A stretch of DNA of 64,000 nucleotides from assembly GCF_002831565.1 (NCBI RefSeq), contig NZ_CP025096.1:7989014-8053013 (forward strand), in the 5' to 3' direction. The DNA comes from Spirosoma pollinicola. GTDB taxonomy: Bacteria; Bacteroidota; Bacteroidia; Cytophagales; Spirosomataceae. The notes under the pieces were generated by a model. That model worked only from the letters and a program-made list of their open reading frames with translations, was not told where the DNA came from and did not search any database. The stretch's first letter is position 1, and every line of letters starts with the position of its first letter. Below are positions 24,800 through 62,266 of the stretch, piece after piece. The translations under genes were made by a program, and so were the position numbers.

Positions 24800-27149
24800 A
24801 CTCAAATTTAAACCAACCGCCCAGAAGGTGGCGTAACATCAGTACTTAATACAAGGCTACTAAATTGATAGATAAAAAGCAAAATAATTATCCGGTTTTC
24901 AATTAGTTATTGAAAAGACTTAATAAATTGAACAATAGAATCAGATATGGAATTTTGTGAAAAATAAGTAATTTGTTTTTTACTAAAAATCAATATATGG
25001 TAGTTTTTGAAAATTTTTGTTAAAATATATTGAAAATTTTAAATATTTTATATGTCAAATGAAATTATAATATATAATAAAATTGCTTTTGGTGATCGTC
25101 TGTAATGGTTTATAGAGATTACTATAAATGGCTTAACATTCTGACAGTCAGAGCTAGATTCCGTCCAGTAAAAAAGTGGACAAGCCGGGATTAAAAACTG
25201 ATAGACCACTTAAGGTGTGTTGATAATATTCATTTATCTACGGTATAACTTTGTCGGAACAAGAGTTGTTTCGTTTACCTTCTTGTAAGACAAAAACGAC
25301 TTGCTAAACATGGACTTGCAACACAATACTGGACGCGGTCCCCGGGACAAAAATTTAAGCAACATGTTGAGGTTGCCTTTTACTGTATTCAACGGGTGAC
25401 AGATAGCCCAATGTTGAATCTCTTCGTTGACGTAGGATGGCCAGTGCCATTATACAGTTGAGCGGCCCCGTGCACCTCAATGTACTCAAACAGAGCCTGC
25501 GTAGCCATTTCAGCCCTGCTATTACTTGCCGATCAAACTAGCCCATGGTGTCGTTAAATAAGCCAACCTTCCCGGGTAGGGATATAACGGGGTCGCCCGT
25601 GCGGTCTTACTGCCTTCCAGTTTTCATGCAGGGCCGCCTGAGCGGTACACTAAGTTAGATCATGCTTAGCTCAATGTCTAGTTAAATGTAGCAAGTCCAC
25701 ATCAATAAAATGGCATCCATGTAGCCACCAGCCTATGTGAACATTCATATACTGAATGTGCTATAGTGCACTAGTTTACATGTTATTAAACCACATGGAC
25801 CTTCCGTCAGACGATGATAAGCGGCCTTATCAATAGGCAGACAGTGGTTTAATTTTGCCTTTTGTCTACAATTCAAGAATATTTTACTGAGCGGATTTAA
25901 AAATTGATAATCAGTAATTTAAGCTAGATTTTTGGCATTTTCTACGCCAATTCTATGCATTTATTGATTACTTAGAAAGTATGTATTAAAATAAATCTAT
26001 TGTTCACTAAGGAGAGTCTTTTAGTATTTTTCGTAATGTTTTTATATATAAAATAGAACTACTGTAAATAAATACTAAGATTCTATTTAATACATTTTCA
26101 GAAAGTCTTTCTATTATCTAATAGAAGTTTATTTATAACGAATATAAGTAACCAGCTTAGAAGTCAGTATGTCCATTTGCTTGATGTACATCTATTGAGT
26201 AGTCTTGCACTAAGTCTTTTTATTCATCAGACTACGCTTCTCCAAAAGTCTATCAGTTATTATGAGGGAAGTTATATTGAATCCTACTGATTATGAAACA
26301 TATTTCTGTTATCAAATATCTTTTCAATTTGGTTCTCATACAAGCTAAGCGCTTAAGCAAACTAAGTTCCCCAATGCTCTCATTGATGTTCAGAGGCCTT
26401 CCGCAGAATGCTGCAGCTGACAATAGACAACTCTTGAAAAACTTTACTCAACGGTTAGTTAATTACAAATGGACTGTTTGTTTGTCTGCTTCCAGTTTTA
26501 GTTTCAAGTTCGTATTAAACACAGAGAAAGAATTGGCTTACGATGAGTTAGTAGGATTTAATGCTTTGTAAAACAATTACTCCGATTAGCATGGTGGTCG
26601 ATCTTGTTCGCCTTAAAGAAAGTTAGAAATATTGAGTTTTTTCTGCCTGGAGAATTGCTTCAGCGACCCGGTACAACTAGTGCTTCCTGAACAAATAAAT
26701 CTCTTTTCAACAGGTCCCAAACTAAGACAAACATTCTTCTATAAAATGGGGAAATTTACTATTGACTAATTTGGGAAATTATTGAAGAGTTTGCTGTGTA
26801 AAAAAGAGAAGTGTTTAAAAATAAATAGCACTAGAATTATAAATATCATAAGACGCATGTTAATAAAATATTAGTTCAGCTAAAAAGTAACGTTAGTGTT
26901 GATATAATAAACAATCCTTTTAGTTAAATGTATGGGAGTAATCATCAACAAATATGAATACCAGTACGATTTAGCGTCATGTAAAAATATTTACTATTGT
27001 ATCATACGTTCATAATAATGGGCTCTTATAGTTTCGAGCTTTATTAGTCTTTGTCTAGAAGTAGTAGAAAAGTATTCTTATTTCTAGCTAAAAGAAAAAT
27101 TATAATACAAACGCCATAAACTGTTTTAACTTCTTTATTCTTATTGATC
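24800..27149. other. AT-rich gene-poor region with decayed mobile elements
   Basis: About 2.3 kb with no convincing intact gene. The stretch at about 25140-25900 has normal GC and contains the IS3 remnant described separately. The rest is strongly AT-rich with many stops. A 92-codon frame at 26293-26571 has no recognisable domain and is not called. Its position between the D-amino-acid locus and the polysaccharide locus fits an insertion hotspot. Confidence 0.6.
25355..25530 (-). pseudogene. IS3-family OrfB transposase, 3' remnant with frameshift
   Basis: Read on the minus strand, the DNA encodes RAEMATQALFEYIEV. After a frame change it gives TLGYLSPVEYSKRQPQHVA and a stop at 25355-25357. 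This is the invariant C-terminus of IS3-type integrases (ALFEYIEVFYN...HSxLGYLSPxEYE). The break between the two halves shows it is dead. TGGACGCGGT just beyond the stop looks like an IS3 terminal repeat. The 5' part of the gene is not recognisable. Confidence 0.75.
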
Positions 27150-27923
27150 ATGAATATTATTTCTACTCTCTTTAAGCAAAATGATTCAGAATTTATTTCA
27201 GATAAATTTGGAATAGATTATACTCCTATTGATGTTGATTTGCATAAAGATAGCAATACATTATTAAATATTTTCCTGCAATGGACGCCTGAACAGGAAG
27301 TTGTTACTCTGCCGCAGAGAACTTTTTATATCAACTTTGGAAAGCGCCTTATCGACATAGTTATATCAGGATTAGTCCTTATTTTTATCTTGTCATGGTT
27401 AATTCCTATTCTGGGTGTGTTAATTTTAATTGAATCAAAAGGGCCTGTTCTTTTTATTCAAACTCGTTCTGGCCGGAAGGGAAAGCCTTTTCACTGCCTG
27501 AAAATCCGTACGATGTTGCATGTTAATGAAACGAAAAAAACATTTAAACAGACTGATTTTGACGATAAGCGAGTAACATCTATAGGGAAATTTCTTCGTA
27601 GAACCAATATAGATGAAATGCCACAGTTTATTAATGTGCTGCTTGGTCACATGAGCCTTGTTGGGCCCCGCCCTCATGCTGTACCCCATGATGCTTTACA
27701 TTGGGCATCGCCGGCCTACCGTGAGCGTTATTGGGTACGGCCGGGTATTACGGGTTTAGCTCAGATTAGAGGTTCACGTGGCGCAACGAATTTGACACAA
27801 CAGATGGAACATAGAATTCGTTACGATCATCTTTATATTACTCGTCAAACGTTTTTGCTGGATATGAAAATTATATTTAAGACGATAAACTTAACACTAA
27901 AAGGAGATTCAAATGCTTGGTAG
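27150..27923 (+). CDS. Exopolysaccharide priming sugar transferase (undecaprenyl-phosphate glycosylphosphotransferase)
   Basis: A 257-residue protein with start at ATG 27150; the TTG at 27144 is a weaker alternative. After ~55 variable residues comes FGKRLIDIVISGLVLIFILSW, the membrane-re-entrant helix of the bacterial sugar transferase family. It is followed by LIESKGPVLFIQTRSGRKGKPF, LRRTNIDEMPQFINVLLGHMSLVGPRPH (the catalytic Asp-Glu region) and RERYWVRPGITGLAQIRG. It transfers a hexose-1-phosphate to undecaprenyl phosphate at the inner membrane, starting repeat-unit synthesis. The usual five-helix N-terminal region of WbaP/WcaJ is absent, as in PglC-type minimal enzymes. It is separated from the other polysaccharide genes by the NRPS-PKS pair. 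Confidence 0.9.
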   Translation: MNIISTLFKQNDSEFISDKFGIDYTPIDVDLHKDSNTLLNIFLQWTPEQEVVTLPQRTFYINFGKRLIDIVISGLVLIFILSWLIPILGVLILIESKGPVLFIQTRSGRKGKPFHCLKIRTMLHVNETKKTFKQTDFDDKRVTSIGKFLRRTNIDEMPQFINVLLGHMSLVGPRPHAVPHDALHWASPAYRERYWVRPGITGLAQIRGSRGATNLTQQMEHRIRYDHLYITRQTFLLDMKIIFKTINLTLKGDSNAW

Positions 27924-28247: not shown

Positions 28248-31200
28248 TTAACAATTATCCAAAACCCGTTGCAGAGTTCGCGCCAGCGCGTTGTCATTCG
28301 GGGGCGAAAACAGGTTAAAATGGTCGCCGGGAACCTCATGGATATTTATTCCTTTCAACGCAAACTGCTTCCAGCCATAAAATTCGCAATCTTCTAGGTA
28401 ATGGTTGCGCTTCTGAGCCCGAAACAGTTCGATTCTCACCTCCTGAGGGGCCAGCCGGTATTTATGAAAAGCTATTTCATTGGCCGTATGGACTTTATAA
28501 TAGTTGCCATAAAATACTTCGAGGTGATCTTCATTATAACGAACGCGTCGATACAGCTGATTGATCTTGCGTTTTGCCGATTCCCGCTTCGATTTCACCG
28601 TTTCCAGCGGGTTCCTTTTCAGCATGGTGAATAGATACATGCGCTCTTTCACGAACGACATGGAGTTGTTCCATACTTTGCTGATCCAGGGATCGAAGTA
28701 GTTTGACTGGTGGGCGTAAGTGTCGAACATAATCAACAACTTCACTTCCTTGCCCATCTGCATCAACTGTCGGCTCATTTCATAAGCGATCCGCCCGCCA
28801 AACGAGTAGCCGGCCAACGCGTAGGGACCATCGGCATTTTTTACCATGATGGCATCGATGTAGTAGGCTGCTATTTCCTCGATGCTTTCAAAAGGCTCGT
28901 CTTCGCTGTTGATGCCTTTCGCCTGCAACCCGTAAATGGGCTGATCTGCGTCCATGTTCATGGCTAACGTGTTGAATAACAGCACGTGAAGGCCCGATCC
29001 GTGAACGATGTAGAGCGGCATTTTGGTGCCATGCGGTTTTATGGGAACCAGCGAATCCCAGCTAATGGATCGGCCGTCCATCTGCAACATCAACGACAGC
29101 TTTTCAACGGTTGGGTACTCGAATAAGGTTGACAGGGGAATAGCTTTCCCCGTTTTCTTCTCCAGCCGGTTCATAACCTGTATGGCAATCAGCGAATGCC
29201 CGCCCAACTCGAAAAAATTATCAAATATATTTATTTTATCGAGCTTCAGGCATTCAAGCCATATATCGGCGACCAGTTTCTCGACGTCCGTGCGAGGGCC
29301 CACATAATCAACGTACTCTTTCGACTCATCGACAACGGGTTCAGGCAGCGCTATTTTGTTTACTTTACCGTTCGGGGTTAGCGGTATCTCGTCCAGTTCC
29401 ACCAACGTCCGTGGAACCATGTAACCGGGCAACTTCGCCTTCATGAAATCGCGGATTGCCTTTCGGTTCAGTTTACCTTCGGGCACAATATACCCGACCA
29501 GTTGTTTGTCCTGCACGATGTTGTCGTCTACAGCCACAACTGCGCAATTCTTCACTCCTGAATGCTGCCGGAGTACATTCTCGATTTCATTCAATTCGAC
29601 CCGATAGCCTCGAATTTTGACCTGCTCATCAATCCGTCCCAGGTACTCTACGTTGCCATCGGGCAGCCATTTTCCTAAATCACCGGTTTTGTACATTCGT
29701 TCGTCGGGTAGTTGGCCGAACGGATTGGCAACGAATTTTTCGGCGGTAAGGGCGGGCTTGTTGTGATACCCCCGTGCCAATCCGGCTCCGCCAATGTATA
29801 ACTCACCGGCCACACCAATCGGCAGCGGTTTGCCCTCCTCATTGCAGATGTAGATGTACGTATTGGCAATGGGCTTACCAATGGGAATTGATTTCAGCGG
29901 AAGACTACCGGGCGTGTACAGGTACTGAAGAGAACTGATCGTTGTTTCGGTAGGGCCGTATTTATTGTAAAACTGAACCCACTGACTCCAATTTCGGGCT
30001 AGATCGGGCGGGCATACTTCACCGCCGGAAATCACCCGTTTCAGTGTACTGTACTGGCCGGGAATCAATTGTTTAAGCAGACTTGGTGTAGCATGAAGGT
30101 GGGTTATTCCCTGTTCATTTATCGTTCGGGTGAGTTCGCTGGGGTCGATTAACGTTTCTCTGTTTATCAACACCAGCCGGGCACCGGTAGTCAGAGCCAG
30201 AAAGATCTGTTCGATCGAAGGGTCGAACGTGTAGGTACTGGTTTGTAGAATACAATCAAATTGGTCTATGGAAAATTCGTTCGACTGGTTGGTGATAAAA
30301 TTAACCAGGCTTTTGTGCTCAATAAGTACTCCTTTGGGCTGTCCCGTGGATCCCGATGTGTAGATCGCGTAGGCCAGGTGGTGAGCCTTCAAAGCAGGCT
30401 GTGGCGCCTGTTCGGATTCAGCGTCGATAATTTCCCGGTCACTATCGATCCGTATCAGTTCGGCTAAGGGCTGCGACCCCGTCCATACGGTGCTAACCTG
30501 CGAGTGGGTCAGCATGAGCTTGCTGCCTGAATCGGCCAGCATGAAGTCAATACGCTCCTGCGGATAGTCCGGGTCGATGGGCAGGTAAGCCCCGCCCGCT
30601 TTCAATACGCCCAGTATCGCAATGATCATGTCCGGAGAACGCTGAAAACACAGCGGAACAAGCGTGTCCGGCCGGATGCCGCGCCCAATCAGGTAATGAG
30701 CCAGCCGATTGGCCTTCTCATCCAGTTGCCGGTAGGTAAGTGTCGTATTCCCGAACAAGAGCGCTACGTTATCGGGGGTCTTCTGCACCTGCTGAGCGAA
30801 CAGATCGACAATTGTTTCATCTGTACCCTGCGAAACCTCTGGCTTTTCGGGGTGGGGGGAAAGGTGCTGGAAGAAACTACTGTCGGAACCAGTATGACCA
30901 CTATAGGGATTCTTGTTGATGATCATTGACGGATTGGCCACCAACGCCTTCAACAGGCGTTCAAACGTGTACATTATTCCATCAATAGTCTCGCTTTTGA
31001 ACAGTTGGGTATTGTAGAACCATTCGAAGGTCAGCGCTTTCTCCGATCCGCTGGCATTCAGAAACAGTTCGAAACCTCCGTATTCCTTGGGATTGCTGCT
31101 TAGATGATGCTCGAGACCCCAGAAGGAAGCTCCATCATCCATGTTCAGATCTATATTGAAGATAACGGGCACCAGTGGCACCCGCGACACGTCTCTGGTG

Positions 31201-32282
31201 ACGTTCAGTTGCTTCAGCAGGCTGCCAAACGTCAACTGCTGATGATCATAGGCATCCAGCGTTCTTTTCTTGCATAATTTCAGAAAGTTCAGAAAACTCA
31301 GCTCTTCCGAAAGTGTACTCCGTATCGGCAATAAATTCACACAATGCCCCACCAACCGGTGGTTTTGTGCCAGCGACTGTCCGGCCGTGGGAATGCCTAC
31401 CGTGATGACCTCCTGACCCGTTAATTGATGGATCAATACGTCGAACGCAGCCAACAAGGTTGTCACGAAACTACAGCCGGCCTGGGTCCCCATCTTTTTC
31501 ACCTTGCTGACCAGTTCACTATCGACCGGGTAATCCAGCCGGCTTCCCTTATACGTTCGTAAGGTAGGACGGGGAAAATCGATGGGCAGTTCTACTACCG
31601 GCACATGCTCGTTGTACTGGCTGACCCAGTAGTCAACAATCTGCTCGTGCTCTACGGATTTGTTAAACGCGATTTGTTCATCGGCATACTGGCTGAATGG
31701 CATCGCTTCGGGCAATTCAGGGCGTTTATTCTGCGCTAGTGCCGAATACAAAGCACTGATATCCTGGATGAGGATACCCATCGACCAGCCGTCACAAACA
31801 ATATGGTGAGCGGTTAAGATAAAGCAATGCTCCTGTTCCGACAGCTTCAGCAAGCTGGGTTTGAACAGGGGGCCATTAATCAAATCGAATACATACAGCG
31901 CATCCTGCTTGCAATACGTATCGACCAGTTGATCCAGACTGGAAGGCGGTTCCGCTGAGAAATCCTCGTAGTGAAGAACATTGGCTATCTGCTCCTGAAC
32001 ACAGATGTGCTGGCCGTCGGCGCTGAATACGGATCGTAGCGCATCATGCCGAAGGGTAAGCTCCTGCACCGCCTGCTCGAATGCTGCTTTATGAAAAGAG
32101 CCCTTGAGTCGAAGGGAGATCGACTCATTGTATGCCCGGTTTGCATCATCGCTCCCTAACAGGCAGGCGGTCCATATTTCTAACTGGGATTCGGTGGTTG
32201 GCGCTATATGAGTTATCTGTGGCCCGGAAAAGGGGTCATATTCAACGACATCAACGTGTGGAATAGTAAAATTTGCAGTCAT
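28248..32282 (-). CDS. NRPS termination module, C-A-PCP-TE
   Basis: A 1344-residue non-ribosomal peptide synthetase. Condensation domain (~25-455) has an intact HHIVCDG at 159-165. Adenylation domain (~490-985) has A3 YTSGSTGQPKG at 641-651 and the A10 lysine 973 (NGKVNK). PCP (~995-1065) carries the phosphopantetheine site Ser1030 (LGGHSL). Thioesterase (~1085-1340) has Ser1160 in GYSFGG, Asp1187 and His1321 (GDHFNLF). Aligned by eye to GrsA, the specificity residues read D-P-E-H-I-G-K-I-S-K, which I cannot assign to an amino acid. It begins 8 nt after the upstream PKS-NRPS gene, so the two are one transcript. No phosphopantetheinyl transferase is nearby. Confidence 0.95.
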   Translation of the reverse strand: MTANFTIPHVDVVEYDPFSGPQITHIAPTTESQLEIWTACLLGSDDANRAYNESISLRLKGSFHKAAFEQAVQELTLRHDALRSVFSADGQHICVQEQIANVLHYEDFSAEPPSSLDQLVDTYCKQDALYVFDLINGPLFKPSLLKLSEQEHCFILTAHHIVCDGWSMGILIQDISALYSALAQNKRPELPEAMPFSQYADEQIAFNKSVEHEQIVDYWVSQYNEHVPVVELPIDFPRPTLRTYKGSRLDYPVDSELVSKVKKMGTQAGCSFVTTLLAAFDVLIHQLTGQEVITVGIPTAGQSLAQNHRLVGHCVNLLPIRSTLSEELSFLNFLKLCKKRTLDAYDHQQLTFGSLLKQLNVTRDVSRVPLVPVIFNIDLNMDDGASFWGLEHHLSSNPKEYGGFELFLNASGSEKALTFEWFYNTQLFKSETIDGIMYTFERLLKALVANPSMIINKNPYSGHTGSDSSFFQHLSPHPEKPEVSQGTDETIVDLFAQQVQKTPDNVALLFGNTTLTYRQLDEKANRLAHYLIGRGIRPDTLVPLCFQRSPDMIIAILGVLKAGGAYLPIDPDYPQERIDFMLADSGSKLMLTHSQVSTVWTGSQPLAELIRIDSDREIIDAESEQAPQPALKAHHLAYAIYTSGSTGQPKGVLIEHKSLVNFITNQSNEFSIDQFDCILQTSTYTFDPSIEQIFLALTTGARLVLINRETLIDPSELTRTINEQGITHLHATPSLLKQLIPGQYSTLKRVISGGEVCPPDLARNWSQWVQFYNKYGPTETTISSLQYLYTPGSLPLKSIPIGKPIANTYIYICNEEGKPLPIGVAGELYIGGAGLARGYHNKPALTAEKFVANPFGQLPDERMYKTGDLGKWLPDGNVEYLGRIDEQVKIRGYRVELNEIENVLRQHSGVKNCAVVAVDDNIVQDKQLVGYIVPEGKLNRKAIRDFMKAKLPGYMVPRTLVELDEIPLTPNGKVNKIALPEPVVDESKEYVDYVGPRTDVEKLVADIWLECLKLDKINIFDNFFELGGHSLIAIQVMNRLEKKTGKAIPLSTLFEYPTVEKLSLMLQMDGRSISWDSLVPIKPHGTKMPLYIVHGSGLHVLLFNTLAMNMDADQPIYGLQAKGINSEDEPFESIEEIAAYYIDAIMVKNADGPYALAGYSFGGRIAYEMSRQLMQMGKEVKLLIMFDTYAHQSNYFDPWISKVWNNSMSFVKERMYLFTMLKRNPLETVKSKRESAKRKINQLYRRVRYNEDHLEVFYGNYYKVHTANEIAFHKYRLAPQEVRIELFRAQKRNHYLEDCEFYGWKQFALKGINIHEVPGDHFNLFSPPNDNALARTLQRVLDNC

Positions 32283-32290
32283 TTCAATTC

Positions 32291-35200
32291 TTAGAATTTA
32301 AACTGTAAATATTTCCCCGGCTGCTCCGGATCGACAACAAACCAGGCAGGATTCCCCTCCCTGTCTCTACCGAGTTTAGCTCCAGAAACGGGTGGCTCGT
32401 TAAACGAATAAGTAGTGTTAACTTTTTCCTTGTGTACAGTATGTTGTGGCAGATGACTTTGGAAAAATCCCGCGTTAATCATCTCACCTATACTATTGAT
32501 AAAGTGGTTTATGATCAAATTTATTTCGTTATCGGTATGTGCTTCGGTTGTGAAGCAGGGAAACCCGTCCCAGATATGAACACCCTTCTCCCGCATGAGT
32601 GTAAATAGTAATTCGGAATAGGGTATTTCCTCTTTGGGTTTGATTTTCCAAAGCGAACCAAACTGAGCCGCAAACAGGGGTATCTGGTGGCGCTCGAACT
32701 CGGCATTTAACGCCTTAGCGATTCGCTCGGCCTTGTGAGTCAGGGAGTTTTGCAAGTCCGCCCCCATCGTTTTCAGGTGAGACAGCGAAGCTTTGGCTGC
32801 TGCCAGGGCCAATGGATGACGAACGAACGTACCTGCAAAATAAGTGACGCCTTTCTCGGGGAAGGAAACGTCGCCATACTGCCACGTGCCGCCATCAAGG
32901 GCATCCATAAAGTCACGCTTGCCCGCAATTACGCCGATGGGGAGCCCGCCCCCAATTACTTTACCGTAAGAAGCCAGATCTGCTTTAACACCAAACAGCG
33001 CCTGAGCACCGCCGGGGTGCATCCTGAAACCGGTGATCACTTCATCGAAGATCAAGGCCGTTCCCGACTCTTCTGTAATGGCACGAACCTGTTTCAAAAA
33101 CTCGACAGGCCTGAATTCGGGTCGGCGGCTCTGAACAGGCTCCACCAGCACGGCGGCAAATTCATGCGCTCTTTCCCGAATAATTTTCAAGCTTTCCTCC
33201 GTACCGTAATCCAGAATCAACATGTTCTGTACAGATTCCGGCATGATACCCGGCGCGGCCGGAAATGACTTTAATTTTTTGGTGCCCCGAACGATCACCT
33301 CATCGACAATGCCGTGATACGATCCTGAGAACGCAACGATGAGCGACCGCCCCGTGACGGTGCGGGCAATCCGCATGGCGCCCAACACAGCCTCAGAGCC
33401 CGTGCTACACAAAGCGGCCCGGTCGAAGCCCGTGAAGTCACAGATCATACGGCTCACCTCGCCCGCCAGTTCATGCTGGGGGCCCACTTCAAACCCGCTT
33501 TCAATCTGCGTGTGGAGCGCATCTTTAATGAAATCGGGTTGATAACCGAACATGCTGGAGCCAAATCCATTGAGCATGTCGATGTACTCATTGCCGTCGA
33601 TGTCCCACAAGCGGCTGCCTTTCGATTTATTGACGACAATGGGGTAAACGAGTTCCTTGGTTAGCGGTTTGAAGCCTGAAACAACCCGGGGATCGGCCAT
33701 ATAATCGCGGTGCTCCTGCGTATAAGCTTTGCTGGCACCGGTCTTTTTATTGTACCGGTCAATGAGTTGCTGCAAAAACGCGTTTTGCGAAGGAGTCAAC
33801 TCAGTTGCCTGCCGCTCAATGCGGGCACTGGCCCCAAACGGCTTCTTAATTTCAATCTCTTCTTCCGGCGACAGGTCCGGCGTTTTAACGGGTATGGTTT
33901 TCGCACTCGCCGGGGCGGGTGCTGCCGGCATAGGCTGGTTGCCGCCCTGCATGAGCGCCACCTGTTTCGTGAGGATCTGCAACTGCTGAGCCATCAGGTC
34001 CAGTACCGAGTTCGAACTAATTTCAGTCTGCTGGATACTCGGCGCCACTAATGATGTTACCGGCGCCGGGCTGGCCACGGCAGGAACGGCCTGTGCCTTT
34101 GGTTCATAAGCACCCGCAGGCAGGTTGGTATCGAGGTAAGTGACCAGCTGGTCGAGGGTGGCGTACTCATCATTCAGTTGCCGGAATGTGATGGGCAGAT
34201 TAAACTCCCGCTTAAGAAGTATCGATACCTGGGTAAGCAACAACGAGTCGAGTCCGATTTCTAAAAAGTTCATATCCGGCGTTGCGCCTTCCATTTCGAG
34301 GCCCGATGCCTCTTCCAGCATTTCTTTTACTTTAAGGTGCAGAACATCTTTGCGCATGTTGATCGCGTATGGGTGAATTTCGGTTGATTGGCCATCGTGT
34401 GGTTCTTGTACGATTGGCGTAGTGACTGGAATGGAGATTACTGGTGTCGTTGAGGCAACAGGACCGACCCAGTAGCGTTTTTTGTCGAACGCGTAGGCCG
34501 GTAGGTTAACCCTGTTCCTGTCCTGATCGCGATAGAACGCCTTCCAGTTTGGTTCCAGACCACTCTGCCAAAGCTGGCCTAGGGTTCTTATGGTAGACTG
34601 GTAATCTGTTTGTTTGTCTTTACCGTCTAGGCTCGTTACAATGCTGAACGGTCTGGAACCCGCCTGCTGACGGGCAAATGTTGCCGTCACATTACCAGGA
34701 CCCACTTCGAGGAACAGCGGTCGCTGGAGTTTAAAAATAGACTCCAGCGCATCGGCAAAGCATACGGTCAACCGCAGGTGCTTCGCCCAGTAGTGCGGAT
34801 CTGTCGCTTCGGCATCCGTCAGCCAGTCTCCGCTCACAGTCGACATGATTGGTTTTTGGGGACGATTGAGTACTATACCCTCGACCACTTTCTGCAAATC
34901 CGGCACGACCGAATCCATCATGGCCGAATGAAACGCGTGGCTCGTATGCAGCACCCGGTTTGGTATGCCTTTCTCGTCCAGAACGCTGGCAAAAGCGGCA
35001 ATATCTTCGTCATGTCCAGCTACCACGCATAATTTGTCGCTGTTTATGGCGGAGATAGACAGCGGCTCGGGCATCAGTACCCCTACTTTTTCGGCCTCCA
35101 TTCTGACCGACAGCATACTGCCACGGGGCAGTTCACTGACCAGACGGCCCCGCATGGCAATTACGGTTAACACGTCGGCCAGTGAAAACACGCCGGCCAA

Positions 35201-38200
35201 ATGAGCGCCCACGAACTCACCAACACTATGCCCACAAAATACGGATGGTTCAATACCCCAGCTCATCCACAATCGGGCCAATGCATACTCGGTAACAAAC
35301 AGAGCCGACTGCGTATACTTGGTATTTTTCAGACGTTCTTCAGCAACCCTGCTCAGTTCGTCGGAGTACATGATCTGGCGAATATCGGTGTCCAGATGCG
35401 CACTGAGTAGTTCTGCACATTCGTCGACGGCCTGCTTATAAACGTGTTCGTTTTCGTACAGTTCGCGACCCATATTGAGGTATTGTGAACCCTGACCCGG
35501 AAACAGAAAAACAATTTCTCCGGGCGTTTCTTTAACTGTTTTTGCTGGCGATGAAGCCGAATCTGCATTGAGTAACGTGTTGACCAGTTGATCGCCCGTA
35601 GCCGCCACCACGAATTGCCGATGATTAAAGTCAACGCGGGTGGTGTGCATCGTAAACGCGACATCGCCCAGCTTTACCTGACTGTTTTTTTGCAGGTGAA
35701 CGGCCAGCCGATTGGCATAAGCGCCACAACTTGCGGTCGACTTTGCCGACCAACTGATGAGGTGTACCGGACGCTGTTTCTTCGACAGTTGTACGGTCGA
35801 CGGGGACGGTACTTCATGCGCATATTCTTCCAGCACCACGTGTACATTGGTACCACCAACCCCAAACGAACTCACCCCTGCTCTTCGCAGCATAGTATCG
35901 CCCTGTTTCGCCAACTTCCAGTCGGTAAGACGGGTATTGACAAAAAATGGGCTGTTGGCAAAGTCGATGTTCGGATTGGGTGTCGAAAAACCCAGCGAAG
36001 CCGGTAGCTGTTTGTGATATAGAGCCAGTGTGGTTTTAATGAATCCGGCAACGCCGGCGGCTGCGGTCAAATGCCCCATATTGCTTTTTATAGAGCCAAT
36101 GGCACAATACTGAAGCAAAGGCTGATAACCAAACGCCATTTTCAACCCGTCGATCTCTATTGGGTCGCCAATGGGCGTTGCCGTTCCGTGGGCTTCCACG
36201 TAGCTGATCGTCGATGGATCGAAGCGGGCATCGTTCAGGGCCATTTTGATAGCGCCGGCCTGTCCTTCGGCACTTGGCGCCGTAAAACTTCCTTTGCCAC
36301 CCCCATCATTGTTGATGCCTACTCCTTTAATAACGGCATAGACCGTATCGCCATCCCGTTGGGCAGCGTCCAGGCTTTTTAAAAGCACCACTCCTACACC
36401 ATCGCTGAAAACAGTTCCATTTCCACTGGCGTCGAACGACCGGCAATGGCCATCGCTGCTCAGCATGGACCCTTCCTGGTAGAGGTGACCACTGTTGATG
36501 GGCGCCGTTATGCTGGCACCACCCGCCAACGCGACCTCACACTGGCCGTTGCGCAGACTTTGAACGGCCTGCGTAATGGCTAACAGCGACGTTGAACAAG
36601 CTGAGTGTACGCTCACGGCTGGCCCTTTAAGGTTCAGCTGGTAGGCAGTGCGCGAGGCTATGTAGTCTTTTTCATTGATGGTCATTACCTGAAAAGGGCC
36701 AACCTGATCCATCAGGTCTTTATGGCAGAGCACATTGTTCAGGAAATAGGTATTGTTGCCACAACCGGCAAACACACCCACCCGACCGGCGTAGTGCTGC
36801 GGCAGATAGCCCGTTTGTTCCAGTGTTTCCCAGGCCACTTCCAGAAAAATACGCTGCTGCGGGTCCATAAGCTGGACAGTAGTAGGCGGCAGGCCAAAAA
36901 ACGAAGCATCGAATTGATCGGCCTGCTCCAGAACGCCCCGCGCCCTCACATATAAAGGATCGTTTTTGAGGTGGGCCGGTATACTCCCGTCCAGTTCATC
37001 ATACGAAAAGAACTGCGTCGTTTCTCGGCCTTCTCTTAATACATCCCATAGTTCATCAATAGTATTAGCGCCCGGAAAACGGCCCGACATGCCAATAACT
37101 GCAACGTCGGCGGCGCGCGTGGAGTCGCCGGAATTATCAAACTCAAGGCCGGCCGATGGTACTGTCTTCTTTACAGGCTGTAAATACTGAGCAATGCCTG
37201 CTGGCGTTGGGTACTGATATAGCTTTGTAACTGGTAGTACATATTGCTTCTGCTTCAAAGTAACAACGGTTCGTTGAGCCAGTAATGAGTTGCCACCCAG
37301 TTCAAAAAAATTATCGTCTGCCCCCACTTTGTCGATCTGCAACAACGCGGCCCATAGATCGGCAACGGTCTGTTCCAGTTCAGTTGTGGGTTGTTTGTAT
37401 AGTTCGGCCCAGTCGGACCGATTGCGCTCCGGGCTGGGCAATTTTTTCCTGTCGATCTTGCCGCTGCTGGTTCGGGGAAGATCATTCATCCAGACGAAAG
37501 CCGATGGCATCATGTATTCGGGCAATCGCTGCCTGAGCTCTTTCCGAATGGCCGAACTGTCGGTTAGTCCGGTTGACGAAATCAGGTAAGCAACCAACTG
37601 CTTCTGGCCGTCGGCGCTTTCGCGGGCCACAACAACAGCTTGTTGAACGGCGGGCATCTGGCTAATAACGACCTCAATTTCGCCTAACTCGACCCGATGA
37701 CCGCGAATTTTCACCTGATCGTCCCGGCGACCCAGAAATTCGATAGTGCCGTCGGGCAGGAACCGCGCCAGATCATCTGTGCGGTAGCAGCGTACGAGGC
37801 CGAACTGTGGCGTTTCCAGATCGATAAACTTTTTGTCGGTTAGTGCGGGCTGGTTCAGGTATCCCTGGGCAAGGCAGCGGCCACTAATGCAGAGTTCGCC
37901 CGGTTCCTGGTTATCAACGACCTGCATTTGCTCGTTGATAATGAACAGATCGACGTTGTCGATAGCTTTACCAATGGATGGCAGCTGGGGCCAGTTAGCC
38001 GGATTGCCGTCCAGTTTCAGCTCGCTAACTACGTGGCACTCAGTTGGTCCGTACTGATTGTATAAGACGCAGTTAGGAAGTGCCGAGAAAAACGCGGCTA
38101 CTTGTGGGGTAATTTTCAATTGTTCGCCAGCCGTCATCACTTCGTGCAGACAGGTGGGAAAGAGATGGGTACTGACGGCGGTTTCGGCCAGATATTGCAG

Positions 38201-39256
38201 CGCGACGAAGGGCAAAAAAAGCCGGTTCACAGCCTGCTTGTCAATAAACGCCAAGAGATTGCTCATGTCAAGCCGCAATTCCTCGTTAATCAGCATCAGC
38301 GTCCCCCCCGTTGTTAGCGTCGCCATAATCTCCTGAAACGACACATCGAAACTCAGCGGTGCCAGTTGCAGGGTGCGCGTGTAACGCCCGGCGCGTGAAT
38401 GGTGGGCCTGCCACAGCAACAAATTCACAAGCGGCCCGTGGCCCATGCAAACCCCTTTCGGTTTACCCGTTGATCCGGAGGTAAAGAGAATATAAGCCAG
38501 GTTGTGAGGAGCCATCGAAACAGGCATGATCTGCTTCGGTTCGTTCGAGATGGTCTTCCAGTCACGATCTACACAAATCAGGTCAAAGTCCACCTCCCGG
38601 CCCGTCAATACCCGACTGGAGCGGCTATCGGTCACCACGACTTCCCCCCCCACATCAGACAGAATGTACTGTATTCGCTCCTGCGGATAGTCCGGTTCAA
38701 TGGGTACATATACGCCCCCGGCCTTGAGTATGGCTAGCACGCCAATAATCATCTCCAGGGAACGACTGATACAGATGGGAACGAGGGTTCCTTGTTTTAC
38801 ACCATGTTTTTTCAGGTAATTCGCTAATTGATTCGACTGCTCATCCAGTTGTCGATATGTAACTGAGTTGCCTTCATGAATCAGCGCTACACTATCAGGC
38901 GTCGCGCTAACCTGATCAGCAAATAAATCGGTGACTAACTTAGTATCAATATCTGAAAAAGACGGAATTAAATTCTGCGCATTAGGTTTAGGCAGAGCTT
39001 CATCAGCAATTCCACCAGTAGTTTTTCTAGGAAACTCTTTCATCCAGATAAAATAAGAAGGTGTTATAAAAGTAGGGAGTTGCTGCTTAATTGCTTTATC
39101 AATATATAGTATGTCTATTTCTTCTTTTTTTGCAATCAAATAAGCGGCCAGTTGCTGTTGGCCCAATGTATTTTCCAGGGGCACAACAATGGCTTCCTGA
39201 ATGACTTCCAATTGTAACAAAGCAGTCTCGTTTGCTTTAATGTCATATATGTTCAT
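32291..39256 (-). CDS. Hybrid NRPS-PKS with aminotransferase: (A-C-subdomain relic)-A-PCP-KS-AT-ACP-AMT
   Basis: 2321 residues from ATG 39256; a TTG 39 nt upstream is the alternative. Residues ~8-91 resemble only the small C-terminal subdomain of an A domain, and its A10 lysine is lost (TTGGIADE). A full A domain follows (~100-607; FTSGSTGKPKG at 258-268, A10 Lys600). PCP has Ser657 (LGGNSL). KS (~715-1145) has Cys887, His1023 and His1062. AT has Ser1344 (GHSVGE) and HAFH at 1440-1443, the malonyl-CoA signature. ACP has Ser1671, followed by a Pro/Ala linker. A class III PLP aminotransferase (~1835-2265) has Lys2099 in SYGKVIGGG. No KR, DH or ER is seen. The A code reads D-V-Q-F-M-A-Q-V-V-K by eye, close to the proline type. 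It probably converts a beta-keto extension to a beta-amine. Confidence 0.93.
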   Translation of the reverse strand: MNIYDIKANETALLQLEVIQEAIVVPLENTLGQQQLAAYLIAKKEEIDILYIDKAIKQQLPTFITPSYFIWMKEFPRKTTGGIADEALPKPNAQNLIPSFSDIDTKLVTDLFADQVSATPDSVALIHEGNSVTYRQLDEQSNQLANYLKKHGVKQGTLVPICISRSLEMIIGVLAILKAGGVYVPIEPDYPQERIQYILSDVGGEVVVTDSRSSRVLTGREVDFDLICVDRDWKTISNEPKQIMPVSMAPHNLAYILFTSGSTGKPKGVCMGHGPLVNLLLWQAHHSRAGRYTRTLQLAPLSFDVSFQEIMATLTTGGTLMLINEELRLDMSNLLAFIDKQAVNRLFLPFVALQYLAETAVSTHLFPTCLHEVMTAGEQLKITPQVAAFFSALPNCVLYNQYGPTECHVVSELKLDGNPANWPQLPSIGKAIDNVDLFIINEQMQVVDNQEPGELCISGRCLAQGYLNQPALTDKKFIDLETPQFGLVRCYRTDDLARFLPDGTIEFLGRRDDQVKIRGHRVELGEIEVVISQMPAVQQAVVVARESADGQKQLVAYLISSTGLTDSSAIRKELRQRLPEYMMPSAFVWMNDLPRTSSGKIDRKKLPSPERNRSDWAELYKQPTTELEQTVADLWAALLQIDKVGADDNFFELGGNSLLAQRTVVTLKQKQYVLPVTKLYQYPTPAGIAQYLQPVKKTVPSAGLEFDNSGDSTRAADVAVIGMSGRFPGANTIDELWDVLREGRETTQFFSYDELDGSIPAHLKNDPLYVRARGVLEQADQFDASFFGLPPTTVQLMDPQQRIFLEVAWETLEQTGYLPQHYAGRVGVFAGCGNNTYFLNNVLCHKDLMDQVGPFQVMTINEKDYIASRTAYQLNLKGPAVSVHSACSTSLLAITQAVQSLRNGQCEVALAGGASITAPINSGHLYQEGSMLSSDGHCRSFDASGNGTVFSDGVGVVLLKSLDAAQRDGDTVYAVIKGVGINNDGGGKGSFTAPSAEGQAGAIKMALNDARFDPSTISYVEAHGTATPIGDPIEIDGLKMAFGYQPLLQYCAIGSIKSNMGHLTAAAGVAGFIKTTLALYHKQLPASLGFSTPNPNIDFANSPFFVNTRLTDWKLAKQGDTMLRRAGVSSFGVGGTNVHVVLEEYAHEVPSPSTVQLSKKQRPVHLISWSAKSTASCGAYANRLAVHLQKNSQVKLGDVAFTMHTTRVDFNHRQFVVAATGDQLVNTLLNADSASSPAKTVKETPGEIVFLFPGQGSQYLNMGRELYENEHVYKQAVDECAELLSAHLDTDIRQIMYSDELSRVAEERLKNTKYTQSALFVTEYALARLWMSWGIEPSVFCGHSVGEFVGAHLAGVFSLADVLTVIAMRGRLVSELPRGSMLSVRMEAEKVGVLMPEPLSISAINSDKLCVVAGHDEDIAAFASVLDEKGIPNRVLHTSHAFHSAMMDSVVPDLQKVVEGIVLNRPQKPIMSTVSGDWLTDAEATDPHYWAKHLRLTVCFADALESIFKLQRPLFLEVGPGNVTATFARQQAGSRPFSIVTSLDGKDKQTDYQSTIRTLGQLWQSGLEPNWKAFYRDQDRNRVNLPAYAFDKKRYWVGPVASTTPVISIPVTTPIVQEPHDGQSTEIHPYAINMRKDVLHLKVKEMLEEASGLEMEGATPDMNFLEIGLDSLLLTQVSILLKREFNLPITFRQLNDEYATLDQLVTYLDTNLPAGAYEPKAQAVPAVASPAPVTSLVAPSIQQTEISSNSVLDLMAQQLQILTKQVALMQGGNQPMPAAPAPASAKTIPVKTPDLSPEEEIEIKKPFGASARIERQATELTPSQNAFLQQLIDRYNKKTGASKAYTQEHRDYMADPRVVSGFKPLTKELVYPIVVNKSKGSRLWDIDGNEYIDMLNGFGSSMFGYQPDFIKDALHTQIESGFEVGPQHELAGEVSRMICDFTGFDRAALCSTGSEAVLGAMRIARTVTGRSLIVAFSGSYHGIVDEVIVRGTKKLKSFPAAPGIMPESVQNMLILDYGTEESLKIIRERAHEFAAVLVEPVQSRRPEFRPVEFLKQVRAITEESGTALIFDEVITGFRMHPGGAQALFGVKADLASYGKVIGGGLPIGVIAGKRDFMDALDGGTWQYGDVSFPEKGVTYFAGTFVRHPLALAAAKASLSHLKTMGADLQNSLTHKAERIAKALNAEFERHQIPLFAAQFGSLWKIKPKEEIPYSELLFTLMREKGVHIWDGFPCFTTEAHTDNEINLIINHFINSIGEMINAGFFQSHLPQHTVHKEKVNTTYSFNEPPVSGAKLGRDREGNPAWFVVDPEQPGKYLQFKF

Positions 39257-40374: not shown

Positions 40375-41271
40375 ATGGCTGCTAAGACTGTTGAACTGGC
40401 TCGACTAGGTGATATTGTTGTAGAGAAAAAGTATGGTATGACTTACGAGGAATTTAGCGAAAAACATCTTTTTGGTAATTATCCCGTCGTAATTGGTGAC
40501 GCTTGTAAGGATTGGTCAGCAAAGAATAAATTCACTCCGGAGTACTTCAAAACGGTCTACGGGGATCGAAAGATAGTTGTACAGGGCAACAACTATACGC
40601 TGAGTGAATACATCGACTTGATGATGGTTGCCACGGAAGATAATCCGGCTCCTTACCCCTGCAAATTACAGATTGACCGGGATTATCCTGAACTTTTACC
40701 GGATGTAACACCCCGGTTTATGTATGCATTACCCGACCGTATTACCAGTAAACTTCTGCCTAATAACTTCCTGGGAGGAGCTGATACACTTGAGATTTTC
40801 TTTGGTAGTCCGGGCGGTCAATTTCCTTATATTCATTATGACTATATGTGTTTGCACGCTTATATTACTCAGATATATGGACAAAAGGAATTTACAGTAA
40901 TCCCTCCTGAGCAGACTCCCTATGTCTACCCAAAAGCAAATAATGTATGGGTATCCGAAGTCAATGATGTAAGAAATCCTGATTTAGAAAAGTACCCTTT
41001 ATTTGCTAAAGCAACTCCTGTTTCTTTTGTTGTCGGACCCGGAGAAACTCTGTTTATTCCTTGTGGCTGGTGGCACACAGCGCGTTCATTGACAGCTACC
41101 ATTTCGGTGGCACTCGACTGCCTGAATGCATCTAACTGGAAAAATTTTATGAACGAAGTAGATATCAAATTGAACCAACGACGTCCCTTAATTGCCAAGG
41201 CCGCCCACGCCTACCTTTCTGCACTTGGTGGCGTGTTGAACACTTCCGAAAAAATCGGGATAAGTGTTTAG
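40375..41271 (+). CDS. Cupin-like JmjC-type Fe(II)/2-oxoglutarate oxygenase
   Basis: A 298-residue protein of the cupin_8/JmjC-like family. The iron triad is visible as His154-x-Asp156 (PYIHYDYM) and His234 (IPCGWWHTARSL). The GPGETLFIPCGWWH strand is characteristic, and the N-terminal FSEKHLFGNYPVVIGDACKDW region is typical of the family. Members hydroxylate protein side chains or small molecules using 2-oxoglutarate and O2. It is transcribed divergently from the NRPS-PKS across an AT-rich spacer. It could hydroxylate an amino acid unit or the finished product, but an unrelated role is possible. No terminator was seen after it. Confidence 0.85.
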   Translation: MAAKTVELARLGDIVVEKKYGMTYEEFSEKHLFGNYPVVIGDACKDWSAKNKFTPEYFKTVYGDRKIVVQGNNYTLSEYIDLMMVATEDNPAPYPCKLQIDRDYPELLPDVTPRFMYALPDRITSKLLPNNFLGGADTLEIFFGSPGGQFPYIHYDYMCLHAYITQIYGQKEFTVIPPEQTPYVYPKANNVWVSEVNDVRNPDLEKYPLFAKATPVSFVVGPGETLFIPCGWWHTARSLTATISVALDCLNASNWKNFMNEVDIKLNQRRPLIAKAAHAYLSALGGVLNTSEKIGISV

Positions 41272-41844: not shown

Positions 41845-43110
41845 TTAGTAGTTTTGAAATGCACCCTTTCCGATTGGTGATGTAACCGGAACAGACTCAT
41901 TTAACCGATTAAACAACCTTCTTAAGACCAGATTTCTATCAAACTGATTTACAAAGTTAAACGCGTTCGATTCGTAGAATTTGAACTGCTCTTTATTCTG
42001 CAAATAGTTGTCTATCAAAAGCTCCATATTATCAAGATCGTCAATATTAGCCGAAATGCCTAACTTGTTGTTAGCTACCACTTTGTATATTTCAGAATCT
42101 TTACCGGCAGCAACAAAAATCAACTTTTCCTTAGCCATTATACCCAGCAGTTTTGATGGGAAATAGGCATCGCCCGAGTCATTTTTCTGCGACAGAAAAA
42201 CTATATCCACGTCAGACAGGAAGTTGTAGTAATCTTCCTGCGAAAGGAAATCGATAAAGTCGATGTTGCTTGTTTTCTTGGTAGCAGCGTATGCTTTTAA
42301 ATTAATCAAATCGCCCCCTTGACCGATAATTAAGAAGACAAGATCTGCATAATCTTTAAATTTTTCGCTTAAGTCTATTAATACAGACAAACTTTGTTTT
42401 ACGCCTACATTGCCGGCATAGCCTACTATTATTTTATCCTTATACTTAGGGAATTTATCCCGGAATATGCCTTCAGTTCCCTTCTTATTTGCCTCATTGA
42501 CACTAATCCAGTTGGGCCACAAATAAATTTTATCGTCATCCAGCGCTACCTTCTGTCTAATTAGATTGATCATACCATCGGAGATGGACGTTACAATATC
42601 GGCTTCTCGATAGCTGTAGCTTTCTGCAACATTCATCGCGTCGATGATGGGTAGTTTCCCGAGCATTCCCAGTGACTGAGCCGCATCCAATTGTAAGTCT
42701 TGAACATTGATAATTAGTTTAGCTTTCCAGATCTTTTGAAACAGAACTCCTAGCAAGCCCAGGCTTATTGGCGTAGTAAACACAACGATTACGTCTTGCC
42801 TACCGGCACGGAAGAAATTAAAGAAAGCAAAAAGTATAAAGGTAATTTCCTGAATTATTCGGGTCAGCGAAGTGACTTTTTTAGGAACGTATAAGTAACC
42901 TCTCAGTACTTTAATAGATTTAAAATAATCTGTTCTAAATAATTTCCCTTTGTCTTCAGGTCTTTTTTCCCATTTCGGGTACCACGAAAAGCCCGTAACT
43001 ACAGTAACGTCATGCCCCTGTTCTGATGCGTATGTAGCAAAATCAGTGGAATATAATGATATGCCACTATGGTCTGGGGCAAAAGTCATACTACTAACTA
43101 ATATTTTCAT
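41845..43110 (-). CDS. WcaI-like family 4 glycosyltransferase
   Basis: A 421-residue GT-B enzyme. The N-terminal domain starts MKILVSSMTFAPDHSGISLY and contains DVTVVTGFSWYPKWEKRPEDKGKLFR and the NVQDLQLDAAQSLGMLG segment, both typical of WcaI (colanic acid) homologues. The C-terminal nucleotide-sugar domain includes IVGYAGNVGVKQSL and the ESDxxFLSQ-like region VDIVFLSQKNDSGDAYFPSKLL. It probably adds a sugar to the lipid-linked repeat unit on the cytoplasmic face. It is the only glycosyltransferase in the locus on the minus strand and is monocistronic. Confidence 0.88.
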   Translation of the reverse strand: MKILVSSMTFAPDHSGISLYSTDFATYASEQGHDVTVVTGFSWYPKWEKRPEDKGKLFRTDYFKSIKVLRGYLYVPKKVTSLTRIIQEITFILFAFFNFFRAGRQDVIVVFTTPISLGLLGVLFQKIWKAKLIINVQDLQLDAAQSLGMLGKLPIIDAMNVAESYSYREADIVTSISDGMINLIRQKVALDDDKIYLWPNWISVNEANKKGTEGIFRDKFPKYKDKIIVGYAGNVGVKQSLSVLIDLSEKFKDYADLVFLIIGQGGDLINLKAYAATKKTSNIDFIDFLSQEDYYNFLSDVDIVFLSQKNDSGDAYFPSKLLGIMAKEKLIFVAAGKDSEIYKVVANNKLGISANIDDLDNMELLIDNYLQNKEQFKFYESNAFNFVNQFDRNLVLRRLFNRLNESVPVTSPIGKGAFQNY

Positions 43111-49945: not shown

Positions 49946-50178
49946 TCTATGCTAATCTTTAGTTTTCGATAGCGTTGCAAACTGGGCAAAACTGGCGTTA
50001 AACGGGCTGCTTTAGTTTTTTTATATACGTGTTACTGCCTGTAATACGACCGCTAAGCAGCCTGTTCATAGCGATACGTTTTTGCCAGTTGGCAATGCAT
50101 TTTCGAGAAAAATCAATTTGGGCGAAAGTCAATGCTAAACGCCTGATACTTGTGACTACTACTCACATAAATAGAATT

Positions 50179-51180
50179 ATGAAAGTTTCGGTTTGTATTC
50201 CTACTTATAATCAGGCCAATTATATAGAACAGGCCATTCGAAGTGCTGTTCAACAAACTGTCCAACCCTGGGAAATAATTGTTTTTGACGATTGCAGCAC
50301 GGATGCAACACCTCAGGTTCTGGAACGCCTTGTGGCTGAAATACCATTTCTTAGTGTCGTTTACCAAAAAAAGAATCTGGGCATAACCGCAAATGCAGAT
50401 GCCAGCCTTCGGGCGTGTACCGGTGACTTTATTGTCAAGCTTGATTCAGACGATTATTTGTCGCCTGAATACGTAGAAAAAGTAGGTCAGCTTTTCGCTG
50501 AATATCCTGATGCCGGATACATACATACGGCTGTCGACGAAGTTGATCAGCATGGGAAATTACTTCAGGAAAAACGGCTGTTTAGAAAATCAGGCTTCCA
50601 GTCAAGTACCGATGCGCTGAAGTCAACGTTGAAAGGATACCGGGTAACGGCGAACATAATCATGTACAGACGTACGGCGCTTGAAAAGCTGAACTATCTG
50701 GCGGGGCGTTCACAACATTGTTTTGATTATCACCTTGCCGCGTCGATGTGCGCTGCCGGTTACGGTAATGTTTATCTGGACGAGATCTTGTCTTCTTACC
50801 GGGTCTGGACCGACAAATTCAGAAGCAAGCGTAAATACGATGAGATTACGGGCATCAGGCAGGTATTCGAAGAGGTGATTGAGCCCGCCTTTTCAAAACA
50901 GAACTGGAAATCGAGCGCCGTAAAAAATAGTCGAACAGATTTTGCCTGCCAGTATGCAAACTGCCTGAGCTGGACTGTTTATAACAACGACGAAAAGAAA
51001 GCGCTCGTGTCCGAATTACACAAACTTTCATCTGCACCTAAAGCCAGGATGTTTAGTTGGTTATACCTGAACGGGTTCGGGAATGCGATGTCTATCTTAT
51101 CAGATATACAATCAATTCCAAGGTCAATTTTTAAAACGGTTTTACTTCGTTTTAAAATGGTGGGTGCGCTGAGAAATTAA
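50179..51180 (+). CDS. Family 2 glycosyltransferase
   Basis: A 333-residue GT-A enzyme. The start at ATG 50179 (MKVSVCIPTYNQANYIEQAI) is chosen because the family begins exactly there; a longer frame back to 50029 is unsupported. FDDCSTDATPQVLE and the nucleotide-sugar/metal motif KLDSDDYLSPEYV are intact. The C-terminal half (FDYHLAASMCAAGYGNVYLDEILSSYRVW) matches GT2 enzymes that act on capsule repeat units. 21 nt upstream of the flippase gene. Confidence 0.92.
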   Translation: MKVSVCIPTYNQANYIEQAIRSAVQQTVQPWEIIVFDDCSTDATPQVLERLVAEIPFLSVVYQKKNLGITANADASLRACTGDFIVKLDSDDYLSPEYVEKVGQLFAEYPDAGYIHTAVDEVDQHGKLLQEKRLFRKSGFQSSTDALKSTLKGYRVTANIIMYRRTALEKLNYLAGRSQHCFDYHLAASMCAAGYGNVYLDEILSSYRVWTDKFRSKRKYDEITGIRQVFEEVIEPAFSKQNWKSSAVKNSRTDFACQYANCLSWTVYNNDEKKALVSELHKLSSAPKARMFSWLYLNGFGNAMSILSDIQSIPRSIFKTVLLRFKMVGALRN

Positions 51181-51201
51181 TTTTTAATCTAAATAAGTAG
51201 T

Positions 51202-52740: not shown

Positions 52741-52770
52741 ACAGAGCAGTTTAGATGTTCTACATATTTT

Positions 52771-53925: not shown

Positions 53926-54003
53926 TCTACTTGCCAGTTCTATATCTATCAAAAATATATAGCTTAATAAATATCAATAGAAGCCATTCTATTTCTTACT
54001 AAA

Positions 54004-55686: not shown

Positions 55687-55712
55687 GTTTTACTACTAAA
55701 TCAATCACCCCA

Positions 55713-56774: not shown

Positions 56775-56784
56775 TCACCAGCGT

Positions 56785-59005: not shown

Positions 59006-59016
59006 AAAAGAAATCT

Positions 59017-60258: not shown

Positions 60259-60304
60259 ACAACTATACTACAACACTTCTTTGCCAAACGAAAAAAAAGA
60301 ATCA

Positions 60305-62001: not shown

Positions 62002-62266
62002 GCAAGGTGCCGTGCTACTGGTTACTCAGGCAATTGAAATAACTGGTGCAACGCAGCAGGCATACCGGATAAAAAATTAATCGCTTACCTGCTAAATATG
62101 ATTTAAATTAGCTTGAAATAAGTGATTAGTCAGACTTAAAAAACGGCATCGATAGTTGCTAATAAAATCGGGCTACTTAAAATAATTATACTATTCTAAT
62201 ATAAAATAATTCAACTCTACACTTTTTGAATTATCTAAACTAATCATTTTGCAAACAAACATTAGA

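Follow-up and report, generated by a model that had tools for sequence, protein, structure and literature searches.

What is a compact assembly line of the polyketide synthase–nonribosomal peptide synthetase (PKS–NRPS) type doing beside genes for surface polysaccharide? The question is raised by a stretch of 64,000 nucleotides from Spirosoma pollinicola (NCBI RefSeq assembly GCF_002831565.1, contig NZ_CP025096.1, positions 7989014-8053013 of contig 1 in an 8.79-Mb genome), called the window below, in which two adjacent genes encode such a line. The pair is a local copy of a Bacteroidota-wide family; the family itself is not new, its polysaccharide setting is. Physical linkage between these synthases and polysaccharide genes exceeds chance, in genome samples that were not blind and among loci that are partly related, and we give a probability of about 0.6 to the reading that the assembly line works as part of the surface-polysaccharide locus through a functional tie. 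A first-pass annotation of the same sequence had described the assembly line and overlooked its polysaccharide setting, an adjoining JmjC oxygenase and a relic adenylation subdomain.

The gene pair and its predicted chemistry

Gene 1 and gene 2 lie next to each other on the minus strand with 8 nt between them, and would presumably share a single transcript. Both open reading frames (ORFs) are continuous, without frameshift, over 3,665 codons. Their features, with the neighbouring oxygenase gene, are as follows (residues of gene 1 are numbered from its ATG).

32291..39256, minus: gene 1, 2321 aa from ATG, [relic A subdomain]-A1-PCP-KS-AT-ACP-AMT (from Pfam and ORF reading)
38984..39229, minus: relic of the C-terminal subdomain of an adenylation (A) domain, A10 lysine replaced by glycine (blastp against the gene's own A1)
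37457..38923, minus: A1 adenylation domain, pocket code DVQFMAQVV, proline-like
37181..37372, minus: first peptidyl carrier protein (PCP1), S657
35987..37108, minus: ketosynthase (KS), C887/H1023/H1062
34667..35512, minus: acyltransferase (AT), GHSVGE with S1344, HAFH motif
34166..34393, minus: acyl carrier protein (ACP), S1671 (borders set by us)
32435..33748, minus: class III aminotransferase (AMT), lysine K2099 for pyridoxal phosphate (PLP) (borders set by us)
28248..32282, minus: gene 2, 1344 aa, C-A2-PCP-TE
30915..32207, minus: condensation (C) domain, HHIVCDG at 159
29364..30800, minus: A2 adenylation domain, pocket code DPEHIGKIS
29094..29273, minus: PCP2
28269..29018, minus: thioesterase (TE), GYSFGG with S1160, H1321
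40375..41271, plus: JmjC/cupin_8 2-oxoglutarate oxygenase, HxD...H intact

A TTG start would place gene 1 at 32291-39295, against 32291-39256 from the ATG. Pfam matches comprise AMP-binding, two PP-binding stretches, ketoacyl-synt N and C, Acyl_transf_1 and Aminotran_3 in gene 1, and Condensation, AMP-binding, PP-binding and Thioesterase in gene 2, while among the best 25 NCBIfam families per protein only the generic amino-acid adenylation domain model scored above its cut-off. The two-gene layout given by the first-pass annotation is borne out by these matches and by ORF reading, and the catalytic residues that it named in KS, AT, AMT, C and TE are intact at the numbers listed. It had also reported that ketoreductase (KR), dehydratase (DH) and enoylreductase (ER) domains are missing; the Pfam scan found none of the three in either gene, in line with its proposal of one extension without beta-reduction. 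The HAFH motif of the AT is one that we take to be the malonyl signature.

The best PDB matches of the AMT are to mycosubtilin MycA (6kfm, 6kfu; E about 1e-119, namely 2e-119, over 428 residues), followed by glutamate semialdehyde aminomutases at 5e-53, which supports the MycA-like assignment made earlier. A KS-AT-ACP-AMT series with the PLP lysine and without KR, DH or ER is that of a MycA-type beta-aminating hybrid. The MycA module of mycosubtilin/iturin synthetase (6kfm, 6kfr, 6kfu) likewise has KS-AT-ACP-AMT followed by a C domain, an order that we assume for MycA, and its AMT is homologous. MycA starts from a fatty acid; the A-PCP part of the window gene would load an amino acid instead, so that the product would be a vicinal diamine.

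The pocket region of A1 (141 residues) matches the solved structures of tyrocidine TycB1 (9bfd) at 4e-24 and gramicidin S GrsB1 (8p5o) at 5e-22, the next match standing at 9e-8. TycB1 and GrsB1 are proline-activating domains, and the proline-like specificity read in the first-pass annotation is supported by these matches. D235 and the proline-type pocket mark A1 as an adenylation domain for amino acids, and the acyl-ligase feature of fatty-acid loading was not found in it. PCP1 feeds a KS, whereas TycB1 and GrsB1 work with a C domain. The code of A1 differs from that of TycB1 (DVQLIAHVV, read from the alignment) at three of nine positions, H322Q included, and other family members have codes that we take to be Thr-, Ser-, Val- or Asn-like; pipecolate, hydroxyproline or another residue tolerated by Gln322 would yield a different 3,4-diamino acid. 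Such a substrate is possible but on balance unlikely, as the pocket matches two solved proline domains 14 orders of magnitude ahead of anything else, and as DVQFIAHVI (locus L137) and DVQYIAHVV (locus L133), presumably proline codes, occur within the same architecture. The same kind of search with the A2 pocket gave 8g95/8g97, LgrA and GrsA spread over E values of 7e-18 to 1e-15 without a clear winner, and no substrate was assigned to A2.

Taken together, A1 would load proline or a close analogue onto PCP1, and the KS would condense the bound residue with malonyl-ACP. The AMT would convert the resulting beta-keto group to a beta-amine, giving a 3-amino-3-(pyrrolidin-2-yl)propanoyl (3,4-diamino acid) unit, which the C domain of gene 2 would couple to the second amino acid selected by A2 before release by the TE. 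That gene 1 would work ahead of gene 2 is supported by natural fusions of the two (L022, L052, L111, L118).

The JmjC oxygenase is probably a third component of this system. It matches the JMJD5 and FIH oxygenases (PDB 6f4m, 1h2k), which act on proteins; it is of the same Cupin_8/JmjC type and keeps the HxD...H motif and a lysine, but its gene accompanies an assembly line. Of 128 other stretches, 16 contain homologues, and the H, D, H and lysine residues are kept in all 22 tblastn matches. The closest ones (62-67% identity), in Winogradskyella thalassocola, W. marina and Flavobacterium segetis, sit between gene 1 and gene 2, on the same strand and directly after gene 1. A hydroxylation step, acting on an intermediate or on the product, is therefore likely. 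No pattern was seen when the presence of the JmjC gene was considered against A2 codes.

The relic subdomain, which takes up about 80 residues preceding A1, is 40% identical to A1's own C-terminal subdomain over 82 aa (blastp), and as a separate N-terminal segment it was met in the window only among 41 loci compared; it points to a lost upstream module or to a recombination scar. A DDE_3 transposase fragment, barely above the Pfam cut-off, lies at 24274-24522, and the adjoining ORF (24542-24805) has no Pfam match. Relic and fragment both indicate past rearrangement, and a paralogue in the same genome (L021) has a split gene 1, as might be expected if the locus were a non-functional remnant without product. 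For the window pair this is highly improbable, given two ORFs open throughout and the presence of the catalytic residues checked. That the pair is an intact assembly line with the chemistry set out above is, as a reading from sequence, very likely.

Distribution and adenylation-domain variation of the family

The first-pass annotation proposed a search for orthologous gene pairs, and these turned out to be widespread in Bacteroidota. The two-gene layout is present in 84 of 116 loci (the window counted, insertions in A2 allowed) and a fused single gene in the four named above; the other 28 differ, for example in being split or cut, in having a longer second gene or in belonging to a sister clade. 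For this count L069, L070, L073, L075 and L080 were left out as repeats, and A domains split by an insertion were merged; insertions in A2 occur in some relatives and, in Larkinella terrae, consist of a methyltransferase. AMT relatives of at least 65% identity were found in 30 of 36 Spirosoma genomes, 29 of which carry a main-family copy, and, in other genera of the same family, in 5 of 25 genomes. In the AMT tree, the domain of some of these Spirosoma genomes is identical to that of S. panaciterrae, S. utsteinense and S. oryzae records. A scan of named genomes gave at least 80 loci, including Larkinella, Hymenobacter, Puia, Pedobacter, Mucilaginibacter, Parapedobacter and Flavobacteriaceae, and among the matches listed Nostoc, Calothrix, Xanthomonadales and Burkholderiales follow at about 60%. 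When 392 Bacteroidota genomes were drawn evenly, 19 gave an AMT match at E<=1e-100, 14 of these at E<=1e-230. In an AMT tree of 127 rows, rooted by midpoint only, the window falls among Bacteroidota rows, grouped with L029, L061 and L062 (SH-aLRT 96).

Some members depart from the common layout in other ways. Flavobacterium micromati (L103) has three C-A-T-TE genes (T, thiolation or carrier domain) around one A-T-KS-AT-T-AMT gene, as if one first module could serve several second modules. In Nostoc carneum (L130) and Calothrix membranacea (L134), related lines extend over four ORFs (A-T, KS-AT-T-AMT, C-A-T, C-T-TE), with codes presumably Val-like.

Among the 93 loci with exactly two A domains (L027, L060, L069, L070, L073, L075, L080 and L113 being left out), 60 have a proline-like A1 and 67 a Gly-like A2, as judged by our own patterns DV[QH]..[AS]Q and DI.Q..[MLV], the latter wider than textbook glycine codes; both code names are assumed by us. 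The window A2 is not Gly-like, a Gly-like A2 being a common and non-defining trait of the family. Mapped on well-supported branches of the AMT tree, these labels force nine changes for proline-like A1 and 14 for Gly-like A2. The simplest reading has A domains swapped time and again around a KS-AT-ACP-AMT core that changes less, although swaps of the AMT itself would leave the same pattern.

The gene-1 layout had been catalogued before. Pedobacter heparinus C6XWU5 appears in Table 2 of a 2013 survey (PMC3870968) as A-CP-KS-AT-CP-PLP1 (CP, carrier protein), of antiSMASH type Nrps-t1pks and with the prediction Nrp-Mal-Gly-Pk, and the table entry gives no product. Going by that entry, it shares the gene-1 domain order and the phylum with the window, and other Pedobacter members of the family are L072, L076, L087, L093, L095, L102, L107 and L121. 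The window departs from the prediction tabulated for C6XWU5 in having an A2 that is not of that glycine type, with a polysaccharide locus and a JmjC oxygenase adjoining the pair. The first-pass annotation knew of no described Bacteroidota product of this architecture. This stands as far as the literature searched goes, since no product of the family was found in the parts consulted (PMC9248904, PMC12181424, PMC10734526, PMC9100364 and PMC3870968 included); the suggestion of an isolated architecture does not, in view of its wide occurrence and the earlier listing.

Linkage to surface-polysaccharide genes

OEP-family and Wzc-like genes flank the synthase in 28 of 40 Spirosomaceae loci, and a GT2 of one group does so in 27. 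Most of these loci run GT2, OEP, Wzc-like gene, gene 1 and gene 2; at L023, which has this order, the Wzc-like protein is 729 aa long and a flippase lies on the opposite strand. The Pfam scan gave no match for this 729-aa protein (L023:2512-4698), and it is called Wzc-like because BLAST groups it with L085:18893-21049, in which AAA_31 and a sub-threshold Wzz match were found. Across the 36 Spirosoma genomes, 28 have both the Wzc-like gene (counted at an identity of at least 59%, a cut-off set by us, the next group reaching at most 52%) and a main-family synthase, one has the synthase only, none the Wzc-like gene only and seven neither (Fisher 1e-6). As the two genes adjoin each other in all 28 genomes that have both, they would be gained and lost together.

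A sister clade in the family allows a comparison. In 16 genomes, picked for unusual contexts and for sister-clade copies and so not blind, a Bac_transf or Poly_export gene is found no more than 30 kb from 16 of 19 main-family copies, as against 0 of 9 copies of this sister clade B (p 3e-5). Nine main-family copies stand outside the standard operon, and seven of them are within 30 kb, those failing being a copy at 1.45 Mb and that of genome G042, at 38 kb; the latter (L033) was counted as main family though its stretches hold no second gene. Neither group includes two more distant AMT genes (G013:C20 and G011 at 585 kb, 47-48% identity), and the short contigs of some drafts may hide linkage in both groups alike. 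Clade B (L057, L058, L059, L141-L146) has a GNAT acetyltransferase directly before a lone A-T-KS-AT-T-AMT gene; a C-A-T-TE gene is absent from the stretch, as are polysaccharide markers from the contig. Eight of its members form tree rows with support 100, and the broken L059, absent from the tree, was placed by its GNAT neighbour and its code (DFWNIGMVH in L057-L059, presumably Thr-type).

Outside these samples, the synthase lies within 30 kb of Bac_transf in 15 of 29 other Bacteroidota genomes (1.19 expected at random) and within 50 kb in 19 (1.90 expected); the 29 come from 30 of 80 listed loci, chosen after flank clusters had been seen and thus not blind. In L074, L077, L082 and L085, from Mucilaginibacter or near it, Bac_transf-group, OEP-group and Wzc-like genes follow closely behind the pair (Pfam-checked in L085).

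The window itself holds these neighbours.

27144..27923, plus: initiating sugar transferase (Bac_transf)
41845..43110, minus: glycosyltransferase; its homologue in Larkinella terrae (L061), 79% identical, stands immediately upstream of gene 1
43663..46245, minus: secreted beta-helix (pectate-lyase-like) protein with Por_Secre_tail; a homologue (60%) follows gene 2 in L029
47612..49945, plus: Wzz/Wzc-type chain-length/kinase protein
50029..63139, plus: glycosyltransferases, acyltransferase and hexapeptide transferase of the polysaccharide locus

The sugar transferase is 5 kb from the synthase, and the polysaccharide locus spans 41845 to 63139. Two of its ORFs, 51202-52740 (512 aa) and 54004-55686 (560 aa), have no Pfam match and are candidates for polymerase or flippase. 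The AMT of Larkinella terrae is the nearest to that of the window in identity, and directly before its gene 1 stand, in order, homologues of 60251-61441 (54%), 61438-62001 (70%), 62249-63139 (69%) and the glycosyltransferase listed. On the strength of this gene order, the pair belongs with the polysaccharide locus of the window, though the layout is rearranged. A glycosyltransferase of the same group precedes gene 1 in L029, L061 and L062, the L029 and L062 versions being 29-30% identical to that of the window.

Rearrangement of this kind could also mean that recombination-prone polysaccharide islands merely collect accessory genes with which they share no function. The forced changes of A-domain labels on the AMT tree, which imply that the loci recombine, would fit such hitch-hiking, as would the altered layout of the window relative to Larkinella. 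Sister clade B, however, is unlinked in the same genomes, the linkage recurs across different polysaccharide loci, genera and classes, and the OEP and Wzc-like order is kept in most Spirosomaceae loci, so that shared position without shared function appears improbable.

The genome has two further synthase copies, three in all, one of them unlinked to polysaccharide: L022, at 1.45 Mb, has no polysaccharide marker within 1.5 Mb. Like L052/L069, it is one fused A-T-KS-AT-T-AMT-C-A-(insertion)-T-TE gene of about 3,970 aa; the fused gene of S. utsteinense follows a Poly_export gene, whereas that of the window genome has no such marker nearby. In L021 (4770000-4789900), a standard copy embedded in polysaccharide genes and with a PPTase-group (phosphopantetheinyl transferase) gene near it, gene 1 is split in the KS into two overlapping ORFs and the adjoining Wzc-like gene has a stop; the copy may be decaying or misassembled.

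Functional readings and meaning

If the assembly line works as part of the polysaccharide locus, its product would be used together with the polysaccharide, either attached to the polymer or released along with it. The stronger form, a nonribosomal beta-amino-dipeptide mounted covalently on the surface polysaccharide, is possible but unlikely. The main competing view is that of a free secreted small molecule (a peptidase inhibitor, a metal chelator acting through its vicinal diamine, or a signal), whose synthase is only co-regulated with polysaccharide loci or parked in them. This view, to which we give somewhat less than even odds, is compatible with the assembly-line steps above and draws on the terminal TE, which normally frees its product, on the L022 copy, on the lack of the marker within 30 kb in 14 of 29 other genomes, Gelidibacter, Winogradskyella and Flavobacterium included, and on the presence, in 33 of 54 loci elsewhere, of a neighbouring gene of PPTase type (one member Pfam-checked), as in ordinary metabolite clusters. 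Against it stand the gene order with export-type genes in Spirosoma and in the four Sphingobacteriaceae-type loci L074, L077, L082 and L085 and the co-occurrence with one Wzc-like gene, as does the scan of window neighbours, none of which was recognised as a dedicated exporter or resistance gene.

Besides the TE, the unlinked L022 copy and the 14 genomes just mentioned, several further points weigh against a functional tie. The pair does not share an operon with the polysaccharide genes of the window: the main polysaccharide operon is encoded on the other strand, and the divergent JmjC gene separates gene 1 from the closest glycosyltransferase. No enzyme for attaching the product to sugar was recognised, and no PPTase match was obtained among the window neighbours scanned with Pfam, the PPTase being a common but non-defining family trait. 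As to the counts, a single orthologous operon accounts for ten of the 19 main-family copies, many of the loci are closely related, and both genome samples were chosen after some contexts had been seen; Wzc-like paralogues at or below 52% identity were not counted as linked, and, of the seven Spirosoma genomes with neither gene, two are incomplete (71% and 82%). Since recombination concentrates in polysaccharide loci, the linkage may be positional. Both the proposed steps and the proposed role are read from gene content and sequence comparison.

A precedent for the setting exists in proteobacteria, where the wcbR/rkpA type I PKS is a standing member of capsular-polysaccharide clusters (PMC3908369). 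As in the window, a PKS sits among polysaccharide genes, and the part of that description consulted mentions no NRPS or aminotransferase part. No NRPS hybrid in a polysaccharide or capsule locus was found in the literature searched by title, which is weak evidence of absence.

As a rule, PKS–NRPS lines are taken to produce free metabolites. A large Bacteroidota family that begins with an amino acid, adds an amine at the beta-carbon on the line and is met repeatedly next to polysaccharide genes suggests a further use, in making a part or a partner of the sugar coat. It is also a widespread source of predicted proline-derived 3,4-diamino acids, for which no characterisation was found in the literature searched. 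Should the dipeptide be covalently mounted on the polysaccharide, repeated exchange of A domains on a conserved KS-AT-ACP-AMT core would diversify the glycan coat in a serotype-like manner, by means of PKS–NRPS chemistry and not of sugars only.

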